DNA from: Planomicrobium okeanokoites
GTDB taxonomy: Bacteria; Bacillota; Bacilli; Bacillales_A; Planococcaceae
DNA length: 64,000 bases
Direction of reading: 5' to 3'
Assembly: GCF_003428875.1 (NCBI RefSeq)
Contig: NZ_QQRS01000003.1
Span: 124,001 to 188,000, forward strand
Positions 24,644-36,772 of this stretch are shown here, piece by piece (position 1 is the first letter of the stretch; each line of letters begins with the position of its first letter). The translations under genes and the position numbers were made by a program. The notes beneath the pieces are model-generated. The model did not search any database and was not told where the DNA came from. It saw only the letters and a program-made list of their open reading frames with translations.

Positions 24644-24688
24644 TTGTTGGCAATGAAATTTTCATCTGAAAATAAAAGATGTGTCAGA

Positions 24689-24717
24689 AAAACGCTTCCT
24701 CCGGGAGCGTTTTTTCG
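24689..24717 (+). terminator. Terminator in the duplicated segment
   Basis: AAACGCTTCC pairs with GGGAGCGTTT, followed by a T-run. It is the counterpart of 36281-36309. Confidence 0.65.
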
Positions 24718-24751
24718 ATTTATTATGGGGAGTTGAAGGCTGGCGCGGATA

Positions 24752-24823
24752 AACGGGCGCTAGCCGCGGATAAATGACTCCTAGCCGCGGATAAAAACGG
24801 CCTAGGCGCGGATAAACATCTTT
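24752..24823. repeat. GCGGATAAA tandem repeats (cluster 1)
   Basis: Four units of GGCGCGGATAAA or AGCCGCGGATAAA recur about every 20 bp with variable bases between. The same family occurs at 36336, 38669 and 44134. Confidence 0.75.
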
Positions 24824-24875
24824 TAAGCACATAAAATGGAATCGTAGCTCTAAAAAAGCCATCTTTGAACGGATT

Positions 24876-25430
24876 TTAAGCCTGAAACTCCGATAAAGTT
24901 TTATCTTTTTTCAGAATTGAAAACCCGCTCCAGGCGAATAGGGCAGAGGCGATATAGAAAATGCTCGATATCGTGAAGAAGTCCACTAAATAGCCGGTGC
25001 CGATGATCGCTGCGGCTGCGGCAATTGACGTCCAAATGTGGTAATTGCCGATTTCTTTTCCTGCTGTTTCTTTTACGACATGCCTGGCCAGCACGGTTTT
25101 TTCGGAATTTTTTTGGACTGCGCCAAGCACACCCATAAGGATTTGCAGAATATAGACATGCCAAATTTCATTAGCCAGGGGAAAAACGAGCAATATTAGC
25201 GCCATTCCCCAGGAATAGATGCTGAGCAGCAATTGATCGCCTGCTTTATCCGCGATTTTGCCGATGATTGGGTAACAAATTGCAGCAGTGAGTGCAAACA
25301 GCCCATATGCCCAGCCAAACTGGGAATAGGAATTTCCGACGTTTCTGAGCATCAGGATATAAAAAGGAAAAATCATGCTAGAGGCCATGCCGATGGTTCC
25401 CTGATAGACTATGAATCGTTTATAGTTCAT
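24876..25430 (-). CDS. Half-size MFS-type membrane protein
   Basis: A 184-residue protein with six predicted membrane helices that resembles one half of a major-facilitator transporter (YPIIGKIADKAGDQLLLSIY is the typical loop between helices 2 and 3). Full MFS proteins have twelve helices, so this is either a truncated gene or a half-transporter that dimerises. Its ATG overlaps the stop codon of the upstream FAD oxidase (ATGA), so it is translationally coupled to it. No frameshifted second half is visible downstream; the 3' side is the duplicated debris at 24.5-24.8 kb. Confidence 0.65.
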   Translation of the reverse strand: MNYKRFIVYQGTIGMASSMIFPFYILMLRNVGNSYSQFGWAYGLFALTAAICYPIIGKIADKAGDQLLLSIYSWGMALILLVFPLANEIWHVYILQILMGVLGAVQKNSEKTVLARHVVKETAGKEIGNYHIWTSIAAAAAIIGTGYLVDFFTISSIFYIASALFAWSGFSILKKDKTLSEFQA

Positions 25431-26857
25431 TGCTTGTACTCCTCATAAAAGATATTCATAAACCGCCCGCTCGGATCATATTCTTCTTTCAAATCGAAAA
25501 ACTCGCGTGTCCTTGGATAGGCTTCTGCCATTTGTTCTTTAGTGGGGTAGCCAAAATAAGGCAGGTAATAGCTTCCTCCATAGTCGAGCGTCACATCAAT
25601 CATGTTGCGGACGACCCTTCCGGTGTCTTCAATGCTCTTTGCGTCCGTTCCCTGATTGATCAGGAGGACCAGCGAGAACATATCTTCCTTCGCATAAGAC
25701 AGCACCGCTTTTTCATTTTTTTCAACATAACGGATGGTGATATTCAATAAATTAAAATCTTCTTCATCGATCAACGTTTCTCTTAAGTCATCGATATACG
25801 CTTCAAAATTTTTCACCGGAACAAAATATTCCTGCAGGACTTCCGTGTTTTCGGGATGGCTGTATTCCATGAATTCGGAATCCGACCGCATGACGTTATT
25901 TCGCGAAATCACTTTTCCATCAATCGAAGCGGAATAGGTTTTCTGGGTGTTCCAGAAAGTCCTCTTCCCTTGCTCATTCAGTCGGGCGAGTCCAAGGAAA
26001 AATTTTGGAACAGCAATCAACGTCTCCTCCCTTAATTTCTGGGGATCCATGGGAACGCCTTTCGGCTCCATTGCCTGATAATTGATGACATACATCTCTT
26101 TTAAATATGAGTCAGGGGATAAGGAAATTCGCGCCAAATGCATTTTTACACTATCGTCTGCTATTACATTCTCATTAAAATAATCACTGTAATCGTCATA
26201 CTGAAGCTGTTCAGAATGTATTTCATACATTTCATCGTCCGTCAGCCTCAACGTTACATCCAGGATGATGCCGAATAAACCATAGCCTCCTACAACCGCT
26301 TGGAACAGTTCAGTGTTCTGCTCCGGACTGAGCGTCAGAATCTCCCCATTTGCATCAAGCAAGCGCAATGATTCAACAGTATCAATCAGGCTGCCGTGCC
26401 GGATATCGAGGCCATGCGCATTGACGCTTAAAGAGCCGCCGATGGTAAAAATATTCTGGGACTGGCTGACTTTTAATGCCAGTCCATATGGATTGATATA
26501 GTCCTGGATGTCTCTCCAGGTCGCTCCGCTTTGGACCGTAATGGTTTTCTCCTCGGCATCGAATGCCAAAATCTTGTTATACGGCTTCATATCAAGAAGG
26601 ATGCCGTCCGGATACTCTGTATGTCCGCCTTGGCTGTGCTGCATGCCGGCAATGGCTATCGGATCTTCTTCCGAATTGGCATCGAGGACTACTTGCTGAA
26701 TTTCGGCCGTACTGTCTGTCGTTTTTATCGCTTTCATTTTTACTGGCAGCAAGCGGTTTCGGTCTTCTGTTATAGGTTCAGCCCTTTGATCGATAAAATA
26801 ATGGAGCGACACGAATAAGAGAGTGACGTAAACAAGGAGCATCAAATAGCGTTTCAT
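25427..26857 (-). CDS. Membrane-anchored FAD-binding oxidoreductase
   Basis: A 476-residue protein. An N-terminal membrane helix (MKRYLMLLVYVTLLFVSLHY) is followed by an FAD_binding_4 (PCMH-type) domain: PIAIAGMQHSQGGH, ILLDMKPYNKI, VQSGATWRDIQDYI and GGSLSVNAHGLDIRHGSLID. The C-terminal part (EEYDPSGRFMNIFYEEY) resembles aldonolactone/L-gulonolactone oxidase-type enzymes. The helix suggests that the flavin domain sits outside the membrane or on its surface, which is unusual for the family. A GTG at 26872 is an alternative start; AAGGAG lies 14 bp before the ATG at 26857 and directly before the GTG, so the start is uncertain. Its stop overlaps the start of the half-MFS gene. Confidence 0.75.
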   Translation of the reverse strand: MKRYLMLLVYVTLLFVSLHYFIDQRAEPITEDRNRLLPVKMKAIKTTDSTAEIQQVVLDANSEEDPIAIAGMQHSQGGHTEYPDGILLDMKPYNKILAFDAEEKTITVQSGATWRDIQDYINPYGLALKVSQSQNIFTIGGSLSVNAHGLDIRHGSLIDTVESLRLLDANGEILTLSPEQNTELFQAVVGGYGLFGIILDVTLRLTDDEMYEIHSEQLQYDDYSDYFNENVIADDSVKMHLARISLSPDSYLKEMYVINYQAMEPKGVPMDPQKLREETLIAVPKFFLGLARLNEQGKRTFWNTQKTYSASIDGKVISRNNVMRSDSEFMEYSHPENTEVLQEYFVPVKNFEAYIDDLRETLIDEEDFNLLNITIRYVEKNEKAVLSYAKEDMFSLVLLINQGTDAKSIEDTGRVVRNMIDVTLDYGGSYYLPYFGYPTKEQMAEAYPRTREFFDLKEEYDPSGRFMNIFYEEYKQ

Positions 26858-26977
26858 AATGGTTTCACTCACTCCTTTTAGTTGCCGGCCTTATGCTGCT
26901 TTTGACTTTACATTAACAAAGCTTTCTGATAATTACTATAATATTCATAATTATATAGTTTCTATTCAAACTGCAAA

Positions 26978-27013
26978 AAGCGGCAGGTGCTGAAATGTAA
27001 GCACCTGCCGCTT
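26978..27013 (-). terminator. Terminator of the carrier-protein/MBOAT operon
   Basis: The perfect 13-bp stem AAGCGGCAGGTGC/GCACCTGCCGCTT is followed on the minus strand by TTTTT. It lies 125 bp beyond the SGNH gene. Confidence 0.8.
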
Positions 27014-27137: not shown

Positions 27138-28043
27138 TCAAAAATACCCTAATTTCTTAAGCTCCTCATATACAATCCAGGAATATTTTTTTCGCCCTGC
27201 ACTGTTCAGGTGATCAGAATCGTGGAAATACTTTTTATGGTCAGCGAAGCGAGGATCGTTCATGTAATTTAAGAAAGGTACATCTGTTTCAAGGGTGTTT
27301 AAGTGTTGAAAAACCAGTCGGTCCATCGTTTTTTCATCGAAATGTTCCTGGTAGGTTCTGTGGACAGGCTCTATGGTCAGCACGACTTGGTAGCCTTGTT
27401 CTTTACAATAATCGAGAATTTCCTCCAGCTGCTTTAAATTCTCTTCAATGGAATTTTCTGCTACAGCTTTTTGGTATTGCTCTTCGACGTGGGCAGATTT
27501 TCGCTCGACGTAGTTTTTTCCGTCATTTGCCCAGGATTGATGGGACTGCCATTTTACATTTTTCCACTTGCCTGAGAGTGCAGACAGAAAGCTTTCACTG
27601 TTTGTCGCGGGTGCGTACAAATAGCTGTAATAATCCAGCAGTCGGAACGGCTCTATTTCGGAACGGTCCAAAATCTCATAATACTTGCCGACGCTCTGGT
27701 CTTCGAAGCTTACAAAAGTCATTTGGGAGATGGACATGATGACGACTCCGTCAGACTTAAGGTATTTGCCGTACTCTTTCAGCAATTTGAAGTCGTATTG
27801 AATCGACTGGGCAGGCAGCGCGAGATCCAGATGGGACATGCCCGTCGGTTTGAAATAATACCCATACATGGAATGGGAGGCACCCAGGTTGATGATGTCC
27901 ACGGGATGAGGATTCTCCTTGAAGGCAACGATGTCGTCATTGATGTTGTAACTCCGGGACTGCTTCACGAAACTGTTGAACGGCAAAAAAAGCAGTAAAG
28001 CCAATGTCATGATAATGGTTAACTTAATGAATAAACGGCCCAT
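27138..28043 (-). CDS. SGNH-fold, DltD/AlgJ-like exported protein
   Basis: A 301-residue protein with an N-terminal membrane anchor (about residues 4-22). The rest lies outside the cell. VDIINLGASHSMYGYYF holds the nucleophile Ser of an SGNH esterase/acyltransferase, and HDSDHLNSAGRKKY holds the Asp-x-x-His of the triad. Such proteins (DltD, AlgJ, PatB types) work with an MBOAT protein to move acyl groups onto cell-surface polymers. It is the last gene of the operon. The frame is open to 28103, but the ATG at 28043 has GAAAGGA 6 bp upstream and begins at the signal sequence. Confidence 0.8.
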   Translation of the reverse strand: MGRLFIKLTIIMTLALLLFLPFNSFVKQSRSYNINDDIVAFKENPHPVDIINLGASHSMYGYYFKPTGMSHLDLALPAQSIQYDFKLLKEYGKYLKSDGVVIMSISQMTFVSFEDQSVGKYYEILDRSEIEPFRLLDYYSYLYAPATNSESFLSALSGKWKNVKWQSHQSWANDGKNYVERKSAHVEEQYQKAVAENSIEENLKQLEEILDYCKEQGYQVVLTIEPVHRTYQEHFDEKTMDRLVFQHLNTLETDVPFLNYMNDPRFADHKKYFHDSDHLNSAGRKKYSWIVYEELKKLGYF

Positions 28044-28127
28044 AGCAAATCCTTTCGATCCTGTACTTCTTTTAATAAAATAATTGGCAGGCTTGAAAAC
28101 CATGCGCCCGCGATGCGGGTTTTCTGT

Positions 28128-29579
28128 TCAAAACCCGCCATAAACGAATCCGCGGCCCGAGGCACCGAATACGAGAACGGAGAGGACAATCAGAATATAT
28201 ACGGCATAGCGGGTGAATGCCGGACGTTGTGATAGCCAGCTCCAGGTGGAAGTGTTTTTCCGTTCGATATAATGGAACAATTGGACAATGATAAAGAAGA
28301 AACTGAAAATCACTAAATCCAGCAATGAAAACAATTCAAGTGCCTGAATGAGGCCTGCGGGGTTCCATGCGCTTGGCGTCAGGAAAAGCTTCGCATGATG
28401 AAAGGCATCGGCGACAGAACCCGAGCGGAAAAATACTCTGGAAAAGCAGACCAGCAGGAAGGTAACGGCGATTTTCATCCAGGTATGCAGTGCTGGCAGC
28501 CTGTCCAGTCGTGTAAAAGCTGCCATTTTAGCGCGTGTGTGCTTCGTATGGTCGCCAAAAACGCGGTAAATCCCGTGTATCAGCCCCCATAACACAAAAC
28601 TCCAGGCAGCTCCGTGCCAAATGCCGCTTATCAAAAAAGTGATGATAATGACCAGGTAGATTTCACTTCTTTTCTTTTTCCCTTTTGCCAACGGTACAAA
28701 GATATAATCGCGGAGCCAGGTGGAAAGCGTGATATGCCATCTGCTCCAGAAATCCGCGATCGAGACGGCAAAATGCGGCTGCTTGAAGTTCTCCGTTAAT
28801 CTGATTCCCAACATTCTGGCACAACCGATGGCAATGTCACTGAGTGCAGAAAAATCGGCGTATAATTGGATGGAAAACAGGATGGTCGCCAGAACGATTT
28901 GTGAACCGGTCGGATCCGGACTATCGTAAACACTCGCTACGATCGGCGCGAGCCGGTCAGCAATCAGTGTCTTCTTGAAAAATCCCCAGGCGATCCGCTT
29001 CATGCCGTAGCTTATATTTTCAACCTGTAAAGTCTGTTCCACTTTGAACTGTGGAAGCAGCTTCTTCGCGCGTTCGATCGGTCCCGCCACCAATTGCGGA
29101 AAAAAGGCGAAATAGATCGAGAAATAGCCGAAATGCCGTTCAGCCTTCTGTTTGCCGCGGGAGATGTCCACCAAATAACTTACGGCTTGAAATGTGTAAA
29201 ATGAAATGGCTAATGGCAGAATAAGTTCCTGGTAGGGCAGGGCGTAATGCCAGCCCATATATCCGGAAAGTGCACGGATGGAGTCATTGACGAAATTGAA
29301 ATATTTAAACCACCCGAGAAAGAACAGCAGGACGCATATGCCCGCCAGCATGACTCGTTTCTTCTGTTTTTTTGTTTCCTGTTTTTCGATGGCAATGCCG
29401 GTGAAATAGGAAAAAACTGTGCTGATCAGCAGCAGCAGCACGAAATAGCCGCTCAAGCTGGCATAGAAACTGTAGCTTGCGACCAGCAAAAGCATCCAAC
29501 GGAAGCGGTGGGGGATTAAATAATACATAAAAACGACTGCTGTGAAAAATATGAGGAACTCAATTGATATAAACGTCAT
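28128..29579 (-). CDS. MBOAT-family acyltransferase (DltB/AlgI-like)
   Basis: A 483-residue integral membrane protein with about eleven helices. FPQLVAGPIERAKKLLPQF, DFWSRWHITLSTWLRDYIF and SGIWHGAAWSFVLWGLIHG are the MBOAT signatures, and the last includes the catalytic His. Members take an acyl group from a cytoplasmic carrier (protein or CoA) and pass it across the membrane to a surface polymer. Here the carrier is probably the small protein encoded first in the operon. It lies 96 bp after the adenylating-enzyme gene and 84 bp before the SGNH gene. Confidence 0.88.
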   Translation of the reverse strand: MTFISIEFLIFFTAVVFMYYLIPHRFRWMLLLVASYSFYASLSGYFVLLLLISTVFSYFTGIAIEKQETKKQKKRVMLAGICVLLFFLGWFKYFNFVNDSIRALSGYMGWHYALPYQELILPLAISFYTFQAVSYLVDISRGKQKAERHFGYFSIYFAFFPQLVAGPIERAKKLLPQFKVEQTLQVENISYGMKRIAWGFFKKTLIADRLAPIVASVYDSPDPTGSQIVLATILFSIQLYADFSALSDIAIGCARMLGIRLTENFKQPHFAVSIADFWSRWHITLSTWLRDYIFVPLAKGKKKRSEIYLVIIITFLISGIWHGAAWSFVLWGLIHGIYRVFGDHTKHTRAKMAAFTRLDRLPALHTWMKIAVTFLLVCFSRVFFRSGSVADAFHHAKLFLTPSAWNPAGLIQALELFSLLDLVIFSFFFIIVQLFHYIERKNTSTWSWLSQRPAFTRYAVYILIVLSVLVFGASGRGFVYGGF

Positions 29580-29675
29580 CCGATCACCTGATAAAAAATA
29601 AACTCAAGATCTTTTATGAAAAGAAGTGTTGCCGCATATGATACACTGCCGGTTACCAGTTCGACTGATTATAGA

Positions 29676-31070
29676 TCAACCATACAGAGGTAACTCGGAG
29701 TAGAGTATTTTTCCAAAATGGTTTCGCGGAATATCCTTGATTCTCATTACCTTGAAGCCTTTTAAGTTTAATTTTTCCTTGATTATTTTTTTTATCTGTA
29801 CATCATCATCCTGTAATGTGTAAACATGCATCCGGTCATCAGTCCCGGCACAGACACAATCATGGCCCTGCTCATTCAAGATGCCTTCCACTTCATCGAG
29901 GCTGATACGGCTTCCAGCGACTTTAATGATTCGTTTGGTTCGGCCGGTTATAAAGAAATAACCATCCTCATCAAAGTATGCCAGGTCACCTGTATGCAGG
30001 AGACCGCCATTCTCATCTTTTTTTGAAAGATCGGCTGATGACTCCGCATAGCCCAATGAAACGTTTGGTCCTTGATAGATCAATTCACCGCTTACATTAG
30101 GCGCGGTAATATTGTTGCCGTCCGCGTCTTGCAGCATCAGTTCTCCTCCGGGTATGGCGATGCCGATACTTCCGGCTTTATCAAAGTTTTTTTCGTAAGG
30201 CAGGTAGCTCATCCGGGCCGTTGCTTCCGTTTGGCCGTACATGGTGAAAAATTGGATGCCTTTTTGATGGCAGACTTCCGCGAATTTAGACGACAGGTTC
30301 GAATTCAGTTTACCTCCTGCCTGAGTCAGTTTCTTTAAACTTGGAAGGTCGAACTGTTCGAACTTCAGTTTATCGAGCATTTCATATATAAAGGGGACAC
30401 CTCCGAAAGTAGTTGCCCCCTGCTCTTTGCATAAATCCCAAAACTCTTTTTTTAAGATAGATGCATCCGTAATAATAATCGTCGCCCCGCTTATGAAGTG
30501 GCTATTGATGATTGAAAGACCGTAGGAATAATTCATCGGAAGCGTGGTGATCGGTTTATCGTCAGCCGATATGTCCAGGTATTCCTTTATGGATTCAGCA
30601 TTTCCAAAGATATTTTCATAACTTAAGCGGACAAATTTGGGGCTGCCGGTACTTCCTGAGGTCGTTAAAAGGAGCGCAAGCTGGTCATCAAGATCATGTT
30701 GATAAAATGTGGGACTCTCAAACAAAGTGTAAGCTCCATATGTAAAAGAAGGCTCCATCGTTTTTTCCAGGCCTTGATGTTCGCTGCTCGCCCATATATA
30801 TGCCGGCTTATAAAGGTCGATCAGTTTCTGAAGTCGATCGGGCTGGATGGATGCATCCAAAAGGACAGGTACGACATGTCCTCTCATAAAGCCTACGTAT
30901 CCGAATAAAGATTCTTTATTATTTGAACATAAACAAAAAACGAGCGTTCTTTCACCTGCTTTACTGCCGATAGCATCAGCAATTTCCACCATTTCAGCGT
31001 AGGAATATTCCCGCTCAGCATATACTGCGGGGCGGCTGCCAAACTCCTCAAGTTTTTTGAAATTATTCAT
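29676..31070 (-). CDS. AMP-binding (ANL) adenylating enzyme
   Basis: A 464-residue cytoplasmic enzyme of the acyl-adenylate family. Motifs in order: LLLTTSGSTGSPKFVRLSY (P-loop, about residue 132), MYGQTEATARMSYLP (adenine pocket), LLHTGDLAYFDEDGYFFITG and GRTKRIIKVAGSRIS (hinge and C-terminal domain). It should activate a carboxylic acid with ATP and load it onto the carrier protein whose gene overlaps its start by 8 bp. The acid is not evident: the sequence resembles acyl/aryl ligases as much as DltA, so D-alanine should not be assumed. Confidence 0.85.
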   Translation of the reverse strand: MNNFKKLEEFGSRPAVYAEREYSYAEMVEIADAIGSKAGERTLVFCLCSNNKESLFGYVGFMRGHVVPVLLDASIQPDRLQKLIDLYKPAYIWASSEHQGLEKTMEPSFTYGAYTLFESPTFYQHDLDDQLALLLTTSGSTGSPKFVRLSYENIFGNAESIKEYLDISADDKPITTLPMNYSYGLSIINSHFISGATIIITDASILKKEFWDLCKEQGATTFGGVPFIYEMLDKLKFEQFDLPSLKKLTQAGGKLNSNLSSKFAEVCHQKGIQFFTMYGQTEATARMSYLPYEKNFDKAGSIGIAIPGGELMLQDADGNNITAPNVSGELIYQGPNVSLGYAESSADLSKKDENGGLLHTGDLAYFDEDGYFFITGRTKRIIKVAGSRISLDEVEGILNEQGHDCVCAGTDDRMHVYTLQDDDVQIKKIIKEKLNLKGFKVMRIKDIPRNHFGKILYSELPLYG

Positions 31071-31320
31071 TGACGAAATCTACTCCGAGTCGGTCCAATA
31101 GCGCCATTCCAGACTTATACGAATCAAACTCTGACATCCATTCGGAATCCAATGAAACATCAAAGACATCCTCCATCGTTGAAATGAGGATCATATGTCC
31201 AAGTGAATCCCATTCGCTTGTTTCCCCTAATGCTAAATCTTCGCTTACCTCGTCTTCTTCCAATTCCAGCGCATCCATAAACGCATTTCTATATTTTTCG
31301 ATATTTTTCATCGTTAACAC
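31063..31320 (-). CDS. Acyl/peptidyl carrier protein
   Basis: An 85-residue acidic helical protein. SEWDSLGHM carries the Asp-Ser-Leu motif whose Ser is modified with 4'-phosphopantetheine. It is first in the operon and its 3' end overlaps the adenylating-enzyme start by 8 bp, so the two are translated together. Its role would be to hold the activated acyl group for the MBOAT protein. Upstream lies a sigma-A promoter with a Fur-type operator. Confidence 0.85.
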   Translation of the reverse strand: MLTMKNIEKYRNAFMDALELEEDEVSEDLALGETSEWDSLGHMILISTMEDVFDVSLDSEWMSEFDSYKSGMALLDRLGVDFVNE

Positions 31321-31407
31321 CCTTTCACTGCCAGTTTCTTTTTCAAGTTCCCTATATGATGCATTTCCATTATCTTTCTTGTTTGAACGAAACTTTAATG
31401 CTCTAAT

Positions 31408-31428
31408 TGAAAATGATTATCATAATCA
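31408..31428 (-). promoter_or_regulatory. Fur box
   Basis: GAAAATGATTATCATAATC lies at the centre of a near-perfect match to the Bacillus-type 7-1-7 Fur operator (TGATAAT-N-ATTATCA; one mismatch). It begins directly downstream of the -10 element of the carrier-protein operon, so bound Fur-Fe(II) would block initiation. Confidence 0.75.
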
Positions 31429-31456
31429 ATTATATGGGTGTGATAAGAAAAGTCAA
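31429..31456 (-). promoter_or_regulatory. Sigma-A promoter of the carrier-protein/MBOAT operon
   Basis: On the minus strand, TTGACT (31451-31456) and the perfect TATAAT (31429-31434) are separated by 16 bp. This is one of the best promoters in the window and points at the carrier-protein gene. Confidence 0.8.
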
Positions 31457-36280: not shown

Positions 36281-36310
36281 AAAAACGCTTCCTCTGGGAG
36301 CGTTTTTTTA
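36281..36310 (+). terminator. Intrinsic terminator of the 35781 gene
   Basis: AAACGCTTCC pairs with GGGAGCGTTT, followed by a T-run. Confidence 0.75.
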
Positions 36311-36335
36311 TTTATTGTGGGGAGTTGAAGGCTGG

Positions 36336-36432
36336 CGCGGATAAATGACGTCTAGCCGCGGATAAAACCGGCTTAGGCGCGGATAAACAGGCTGCAGGCG
36401 CTGATAAACACCGATTTGCCGCGGATAAGCGG
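36336..36432. repeat. GCGGATAAA tandem repeats (cluster 2)
   Basis: About five units of GCGCGGATAAA or GCCGCGGATAA at 20-bp spacing. The start of the cluster and its flank match cluster 1 at 24752, showing that a whole segment was duplicated. Confidence 0.75.
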
Positions 36433-36772
36433 GGTGGAGGTGCTTAAATAGAAGCTGTTGGCCTCGAAAACAAGCATTTCTGAAAGGATTTTCCTCAATT
36501 CCCTCACTCATAAACAGAAAACTGCCCCAAACGCACCCAAAATATGAGAAATTTAAAAGGATGTCTCCTAAAAGATATGCTGCCAAGCAGATGGTCTGGA
36601 TTAACAACCGCTCCAGCCAGCTTTAACGTGCAATAAAGGATGTGAACTATTTTTAATTATCCTTTTATCGCTTTCTTAACTAAATTTTATAATTTTTTGA
36701 TCTTTTGGCTGGTAATCGAACATAGGTTCTGTTATAGTAAAAGCATATCACTATGGAATGGGGTGTATTTCG
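36433..36772. other. Intergenic region
   Basis: No gene was recognised. It becomes AT-rich toward the next gene, and GGGGTG serves as its ribosome binding site. Confidence 0.35.

Follow-up and report, generated by a model that had tools for sequence, protein, structure and literature searches.

A predicted Fur-regulated, dlt-like acyl-transfer operon in Planomicrobium okeanokoites and other Bacillales, likely distinct from D-alanylation

We consider it likely that the four-gene operon described here encodes a dlt-like acyl-transfer pathway that is induced by iron starvation and is distinct from D-alanylation, a reading predicted from sequence. All positions refer to the window, by which we mean the whole 64-kb stretch of NZ_QQRS01000003.1 that was analysed, and all features lie on its minus strand. 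The earlier note on this DNA had named the four parts of a dlt-type pathway in an operon-like set, and both points held: a carrier protein, an AMP-forming ligase, an MBOAT protein and an SGNH protein are all recognised from domain and structure matches.

The first gene encodes an acyl carrier protein of 82 aa (31063..31311) with an EWDSLGH motif, whose serine is expected to bear phosphopantetheine; no Pfam family was assigned to the protein. We reassessed its start, which is most likely the ATG at 31311 rather than the GTG at 31320 given in the ORF list, because the methionine encoded there, Met4 of the longer ORF, does not vary. The second gene (29676..31070) encodes an AMP-forming acid:carrier ligase of 464 aa, for which the structure model has a pLDDT of 89.5. 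The third encodes a DltB-like MBOAT acyltransferase of 483 aa (28128..29579) with the MBOAT domain PF03062 (E 9.4e-24) and with His282 and His322 invariant in 14/14. NCBIfam gives DltB as its sole match, and the PDB holds no relatives of it at E 0.01 other than DltB. The protein scores 160 bits against the DltB equivalog TIGR04091, where the cut-off is 375.

The fourth gene encodes an SGNH-fold protein of 301 aa with one N-terminal membrane helix (27138..28043). Its start is probably the ATG at 28043 and not the 28103 of the ORF list, since Met21 of the longer, 321-aa ORF is invariant in alignment A2. In the numbering of that longer ORF, Ser76 and His298 are invariant and the acid position is variable: Asp295, three residues before the histidine (DxxH), is found in 31/42 sequences and Asn in the other 11/42, and Asp297 is found in 39/42. 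Pfam gave no match over its cut-off (DUF1574 appeared below threshold only) and a profile search of PDB sequences gave nothing credible. The structure model resembles SGNH hydrolases, DltD and PatB (Z 10.1 for PatB). Between this last gene and the next one there is a probable intrinsic terminator (26975..27013), with a 14-bp stem, an 8-nt loop and a U5 tract at the 3' arm (-27.5 kcal/mol, z -7.9). A terminator-pattern scan did not list this hairpin, and the terminator-like sites of that scan were no more numerous than in shuffled sequence.

The promoter can be read directly. The -35 hexamer TTGACT (31451..31456) and the -10 hexamer TATAAT (31429..31434) are separated by a 16-bp spacer, as given in the earlier note. 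Directly downstream of the -10 is the Fur site TGATTATGATAATCATTTTCA (31408..31428), which consists of two overlapping 7-1-7 boxes offset by 6 bp. One of the two 15-mers has one mismatch, as reported earlier, and the other has two. Boxes with one mismatch or fewer did not occur in 20 first-order Markov simulations of the whole window, and occurred 0.001 times per run in 3000 first-order Markov runs of the local 240 bp. The host genome (3.3 Mb) has five places within one mismatch of the Fur consensus, the operon's box among them, and one place within one mismatch of the same pattern written backwards. Three of the other four boxes precede genes that best match FecCD/FhuB-type, FecE-type and Peripla_BP_2 transport proteins (the NCBIfam matches are under the model cut-offs and the Pfam match is over). 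There are three Fur-family genes (PF01475) over the cut-off in this genome, each a candidate for Fur itself.

The box is kept in orthologous operons. Scanning 420 bp upstream of each of 24 family copies of the cassette, we found a Fur-like box with at most three mismatches in 24/24 and with at most two in 20/24. For 41 cassettes on named contigs, 13 of them shared with the first set, the counts were 41/41 at three mismatches or fewer, 39/41 at two or fewer and 30/41 at one or fewer. Shuffled promoters reached these levels in 9.6%, 1.0% and 0.07% of cases, and for 4/24 and 2/41 cassettes the best box has three mismatches, the level met by 9.6% of shuffles. Among carriers known only from the class-level sample, the scan covered a single genome, G287. 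A -35/-10 pair adjoins the box in 21/24 copies; none was seen in L035, L036 and L040, where the boxes sit at the far end of the stretch.

The control sets behaved differently. Promoters of true dlt operons in the family had no box with three or fewer mismatches in the 20 tested (from 37 true-dlt genomes found), and MBOAT-less relatives had none with two or fewer in 14, with L142 reaching three mismatches and L147 doing so when measured from a distant ACP. Promoters of other genes had a box with at most two mismatches in 6/348, and in four of these six the gene encodes the substrate-binding protein of an ABC transporter in the vicinity of a cassette. Five loci have an iron-type transporter adjacent to the cassette or not far from it, with its own Fur box at one mismatch or fewer. 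The FbpA-like protein of the neighbouring transporter has no NCBIfam name at E 1e-20 and is given as SBP_bac_8 by Pfam, so the "iron" label rests on its Fur boxes and its likeness and not on a named family. We reject a chance origin of the operon's box on the basis of the shuffles, the 348 control genes and the dlt promoters, and the operon probably belongs to the Fur regulon, as predicted from a promoter box that is kept in orthologues.

The order carrier-ligase-MBOAT-SGNH was found in 52 genomes, nearly all of them Bacillales and some of them drafts that may hide genes. It is kept in 23/23 of the close family loci that we fetched and in 41/41 of the named-contig loci that hold both MBOAT and SGNH genes. 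The family-level sample consisted of 261 genomes, and the order-level sample gave the identical number and hence no extra breadth. Cassettes sit in many differing gene neighbourhoods, where iron genes are a minority of the flanking genes, and a concatenated tree mostly follows genera, with Planococcus grouped together; recent horizontal transfer is no part of our claim.

The ligase scores 101 bits against the DltA model TIGR01734, for which the cut-off is 560, and it scores higher against models of other acid ligases (best 178 bits, likewise below cut-off). In DltA, Asp197 binds the alpha-amino group of the substrate, as described in PMC11253843. We read this position in an alignment (A6) of 40 ligases, made of the window's own, 26 of the 41 from named-contig cassettes and 13 of the 14 relatives (L143, truncated by a contig end, was omitted), with the aspartate read in two aligned local DltA sequences (L171 and L176). 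All 40 ligases have glycine there (Gly184). At true dlt loci, tblastn found DltA in 20/20 and the Asp pattern matched in 5/20. The suggestion that the adenylating enzyme need not use D-alanine thus agrees with the sequence, and the ligase is probably not set up for D-alanine and would use another acid. Arg286 is invariant in the ligases and is located in the loop that follows the TEAT motif. VinN, which is among the ligase matches, has Arg331 in the same loop, in a residue register that is approximate relative to Arg286. This arginine of VinN is proposed to recognise a substrate carboxylate (PMC7756342 and PMC11253843).

We propose that under iron-replete conditions Fur-Fe(II) would block the strong promoter from the site directly downstream of the -10, as the position and conservation of the box suggest, and that iron shortage would let all four genes be transcribed as a single unit. 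The ligase, judging from its fold and motifs, would adenylate a carboxylic acid without the alpha-amino group that DltA recognises and load it onto the carrier. At the inner face of the membrane the carrier would hand its acyl group to the MBOAT protein, which would move it to the other side. There, by analogy with DltB and DltD, the membrane-anchored SGNH protein would finish the transfer to an exported acceptor. By analogy only, teichoic acid or another glycan, or some other surface polymer, is the most likely acceptor. The benefit would probably be a surface charge or metal binding tuned for ferric iron uptake.

One alternative departs from this proposal in the benefit alone. The Fur link may be secondary, with the acylation serving envelope defence (e.g. 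against cationic peptides or autolysins) and low iron acting merely as a cue. The established roles of dlt-type surface acylation are to control charge and to give resistance to peptides. In Clostridioides difficile, low iron raises transcript levels of the true dlt operon, which the authors see as greater resistance to external attack, and in the same table the protein columns show no rise, with DltA negative and DltB marked OFF (PMC6311696). Some cassettes lie beside or near transporters with Fur boxes, which speaks against low iron as a mere cue, and we regard this account as possible if unlikely. The C. difficile genes also bear on the earlier remark that iron-controlled surface acylation is not known to be described for this gene set. 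They are likewise iron-responsive surface-acylation genes (in our case predicted from sequence), but they are true D-alanine genes responding at the RNA level, and we compare them with the cassette by description and not by sequence. The remark therefore has to be narrowed; for the cassette itself, full-text literature searches, with most subscription papers outside their coverage, found no description.

A more far-reaching possibility is that the cassette gathers iron independently of siderophores. A wall polymer would be given an acid that has an iron-binding group left free, and the wall would then act as a ferric-iron sponge for transporters. The acid could have a second carboxylate or be a hydroxy acid, possibly recognised by Arg286 in the loop of the ligase pocket, and the wall iron would feed Fur-controlled transporters of the FbpABC/FecCD type. 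We think this is doubtful. If it were true, bacteria would have a further, new class of iron acquisition, found in species mostly without recognised siderophore synthases.

The acyl group might also be placed on a small secreted chelator, either a siderophore or a lipid ionophore, and not on a surface polymer. Siderophore pathways commonly include a ligase paired with a carrier, and Fur control together with iron-type transporters would fit. We looked for synthase domains in 51 of the 52 carriers (L111 was left out). IucA/IucC was found in 11/51 and not in the other 40, NRPS condensation domains were found in 3/51 and not in the other 48, and one or both were found in 12/51; neither was found in 39/51, although genes can be missed in draft genomes. 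On this count we reject dependence on a self-made siderophore and think it unlikely that such a compound is the acceptor in general. No backbone-making gene recurs beside the cassette across genera in the neighbourhoods compared, and an MBOAT protein with a membrane-anchored SGNH protein is the arrangement of polymer acylation. We therefore consider a secreted chelator improbable.

Finally, the operon could be a diverged, Fur-controlled replacement of dltABCD that still loads D-alanine onto teichoic acid. The likeness is real: ligase, carrier, MBOAT and membrane-anchored SGNH protein all correspond, the MBOAT protein matches no NCBIfam family but DltB, and the SGNH model matches DltD among others. 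True DltB is also rare in carriers, being found in 0/24, in 0/20 (four also in the 24) and in 1/18 (five also in the 24). The cassette could therefore partly stand in for dlt, and the C. difficile transcripts described above would suit an iron-responsive D-alanylation. Strict exclusion between the two is not upheld, as G287, a metagenome-assembled genome, has both a dltABCD without a box at two or fewer mismatches and a cassette with a one-mismatch box. The gene order differs as had been noted, C-A-B-D here versus A-B-C-D in the two dlt loci that we read (L169 and L190). The missing aspartate, the scores far under the DltB and DltA cut-offs and the genome with both operons lead us to reject this as the organism's ordinary dlt locus and make retained D-alanylation quite improbable.

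Other known systems share parts of the likely dlt-like, iron-induced pathway. The nearest relatives of the ligase outside the cassette (38-52% identity) belong to surface-glycan ligase-ACP pairs, found with SDR, LuxE, LuxC and NeuB. Most have an ACP nearby and share Gly184 and Arg286 with the cassette, but tblastn found no MBOAT or SGNH relative with them and they have no Fur box at two or fewer mismatches. MBOAT proteins of the AlgI/PatA type export acyl groups with an SGNH partner (PatB), which our SGNH model resembles; unlike the cassette, these systems are not known to have a dedicated ligase and carrier. AlmEFG, which glycylates lipid A in Vibrio, follows the same logic of ligase, carrier and acyltransferase for envelope decoration, but with an LPLAT-type transferase, with glycine and in a Gram-negative; MBOAT and SGNH are not named in the part of the text available (PMC3783018).

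If our reading is true, a second acylation set that uses another acid would tie envelope chemistry to iron supply, and the four genes give a defined operon in which this link can be tested. For species without a recognised siderophore synthase, the cassette may be a missing part of life at low iron.

The window (C21:124001-188000 of a 3.30-Mb genome, of Planococcus type judging by its named relatives) carries a four-gene cassette on its minus strand at about 27138-31456, which we read from the open reading frames as carrier protein, AMP-ligase, MBOAT protein and SGNH-type protein. The carrier-protein and ligase genes overlap by 8 bp, the refined start sites are 31311 for the carrier protein and 28043 for the SGNH protein, and a 14-bp hairpin leading into U5 lies 3' of the last gene. 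Pfam matched the MBOAT (PF03062, 9.4e-24) and the ligase (AMP-binding, 1.6e-44). The carrier protein had one weak match, to an NCBIfam ACP model (5e-6), and the SGNH protein matched only below threshold. With the SGNH structure matches described below, this bears out the four dlt-type parts named in the earlier note.

Also 3' of the cassette, a half-length MFS protein (24876-25430, minus strand, 184 aa) overlaps an FAD lactone-oxidase/DprE1-like gene (25427-26872, minus strand); among the compared loci, L032 is the only other one in which this pair follows the cassette (94% and 98% identical), which is on the same contig as L100. Small ORFs of short repeats at 24662-24862 and 36308-36607 (minus strand) both contain YPRLxxxYPRL and YPRQPSTPHNK, with LGVFxPELGVF, KLGIN and TAPQ elsewhere. 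Similar ORFs occur in L165-L167, and the repeats suggest that this genome has an intergenic repeat family located at the ends of genes.

We rejected the possibility that this is the ordinary dlt locus, because the MBOAT scored 160 bits against the DltB model (cut-off 375), the ligase scored 101 bits against the DltA model (cut-off 560), and the DltA Asp is replaced by Gly. D197 of DltA is described as binding the amino group (PMC11253843). In an alignment with two DltA proteins of the same family, FSFDLS pairs with YSYGLS of the cassette ligase, and Gly holds the Asp position in all 40 ligases, 13 distant relatives among them, which fits the suggestion that the enzyme need not use D-alanine. 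Arg286 and His191 are likewise invariant in the 40. Arg286 sits in the loop that holds VinN Arg331, proposed to recognize a carboxylate (PMC7756342, PMC11253843), although the residue-to-residue register is tentative. The ligase model (pLDDT 89.5) has the general adenylate-forming fold, and with DltA 3e7w at rank 26 (Z 37.4; best row 38.6) it is no closer to DltA than to other adenylate-forming enzymes. Gene order also differs, as had been noted: carrier-ligase-MBOAT-SGNH here, A-B-C-D in the dlt loci L169 and L190.

The transfer proteins do resemble those of dlt. DltB proteins were the only PDB relatives of the MBOAT profile at E 0.01, and two histidines are kept in 14/14 MBOATs. The SGNH model (pLDDT 81.8), whose N-terminal helix is hydrophobic by a simple scan, matches DltD (3bma; Z 10.2, 228 aligned, rmsd 5.0), PatB (Z 10.1) and also SGNH hydrolases. 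Ser76 and His298 are invariant (42/42), and the catalytic acid is not (Asp295 in 31/42, Asp297 in 39/42). In S. aureus, DltD is reported to face outward with DltC kept inside (PMC3783018); carried over as a model, this topology would put the SGNH protein outside and the carrier inside.

Of 261 family genomes, 24 have a close ligase (64–83%), the window's own genome being one of them, and an SGNH profile search returned the identical 24; the gene order was the same in all 23 fetched family flanks. Across the named genomes that we scanned there were 55 ligase loci, 41 of them with all four genes in this order. At the other 14 (38–52% identity), tblastn found no MBOAT or SGNH relatives. Thirteen of the 41 match family contigs in length and were taken to be identical with them, which leaves 52 distinct carriers in our sets. 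In an evenly drawn class sample, 18/398 genomes had the SGNH gene.

The promoter read in the earlier note (TTGACT, 16 bp, TATAAT) stands. Two overlapping 7-1-7 boxes directly follow TATAAT. The genome has three Fur-family genes and five places within one mismatch of the box (a reversed control pattern gave one). One is at the cassette; three precede ABC transporter genes (best matches FecCD/FhuB-type, FecE-type and Peripla_BP_2; the NCBIfam matches are below cut-off, the Pfam match above); and one, inside the ferrochelatase (hemH) coding sequence (C24:73107-73121, L168), could be either a chance match or an intragenic site.

We looked for the box in orthologous operons, where its absence would have counted against Fur control, and found it at ≤3 mismatches in 24/24 family cassettes (≤2 in 20; 420 bp scanned) and in 41/41 named-contig cassettes (none in 5, one in 25, two in 9, three in 2; 450 bp scanned). 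Markov shuffles of those 41 sequences reached ≤3 in 9.6%, ≤2 in 1.0% and ≤1 in 0.07%. Among 348 other genes (≥200 aa) of these loci, 36, 6 and 5 did so, and four of the five best were substrate-binding genes of ABC transporters near cassettes. The 14 MBOAT-less relatives had no box at ≤2 and one at 3 (L147 gives a second at 3 under the other measurement used), and none of 20 true dlt operons tested in the family had one at ≤3 within 600 bp. The spacing between the box and the start codon ranges from about 40 to 390 bp; the leader therefore changes whereas the box is retained. In B. subtilis ChIP-seq, a regulated Fur site is reported to match 13/15 bases and 10/15-base sites to lack measurable occupancy, which makes the three-mismatch boxes the least secure; dlt goes unmentioned in that paper's main text (PMC6212828).

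True DltB is present in 37/261 family genomes, none of them among the 24 carriers; 20 carriers traced via named contigs, including four of those 24, had none either. In the class sample true DltB is in 69/398 genomes, including one of 18 carriers, a metagenome-assembled genome (G287) with a cassette box at one mismatch and a dltABCD without a box at ≤2. IucA/IucC occurs in 1/24 family carriers versus 29/237 others, and in 10/32 carriers reached from named contigs (five common to the 24, all negative). Condensation domains are in 3/51 carriers, and neither marker was found in 39/51. Exiguobacterium sensu stricto is described as having no siderophore pathway and Exiguobacterium_A as having one in 26/35 genomes (PMC8143284); we found no IucA/IucC in the 11 Exiguobacterium carriers, counted irrespective of group.

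Neighbourhoods are many and unrelated among loci. In five, an ABC transporter (SBP, permease, ATPase) adjoins or lies near the cassette with its own Fur box at ≤1 mismatch: L035 and L102 (Solibacillus), L105 and L117 (Lysinibacillus), and L110 (Metabacillus; Pfam SBP_bac_8, BPD_transp_1). Upstream of the cassette in L033, L043, L048 and L138 (several Planococcus) is a conserved block that we named by eye as ABC transporter, ArsR-like regulator, arsenate-reductase-like protein and acyl-CoA ligase. Pfam on seven MBOAT-less relatives found LuxE in L137, L140 and L057, LuxC in L137 and NeuB in L057; by eye, SDR genes and more NeuB-like genes (L064, L148, L149) lie near such ligases. The cassette's ligase-carrier pair probably originated in envelope-glycan chemistry. 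The surface-glycan clusters of L137, L140 and L057 combine ligase-ACP pairs with these Lux homologues and with SDR genes, which hints that glycan synthesis there includes an acyl or aldehyde step of an uncharacterised kind.

In full-text searches of mainly open-access papers we found no description of this cassette. For dlt itself, C. difficile transcripts are reported to rise in low iron, but the protein columns do not (PMC6311696), and S. aureus dlt mutants to have higher fitness under calprotectin, the authors suggesting that D-Ala charge may repel metals (PMC11253595). We conclude that the cassette is a real, widely conserved dlt-like operon of a separate kind from dltABCD, and, judging by its boxes, very probably under Fur control. 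Fur would act as its repressor, and transfer would run outward to a putative surface acceptor.
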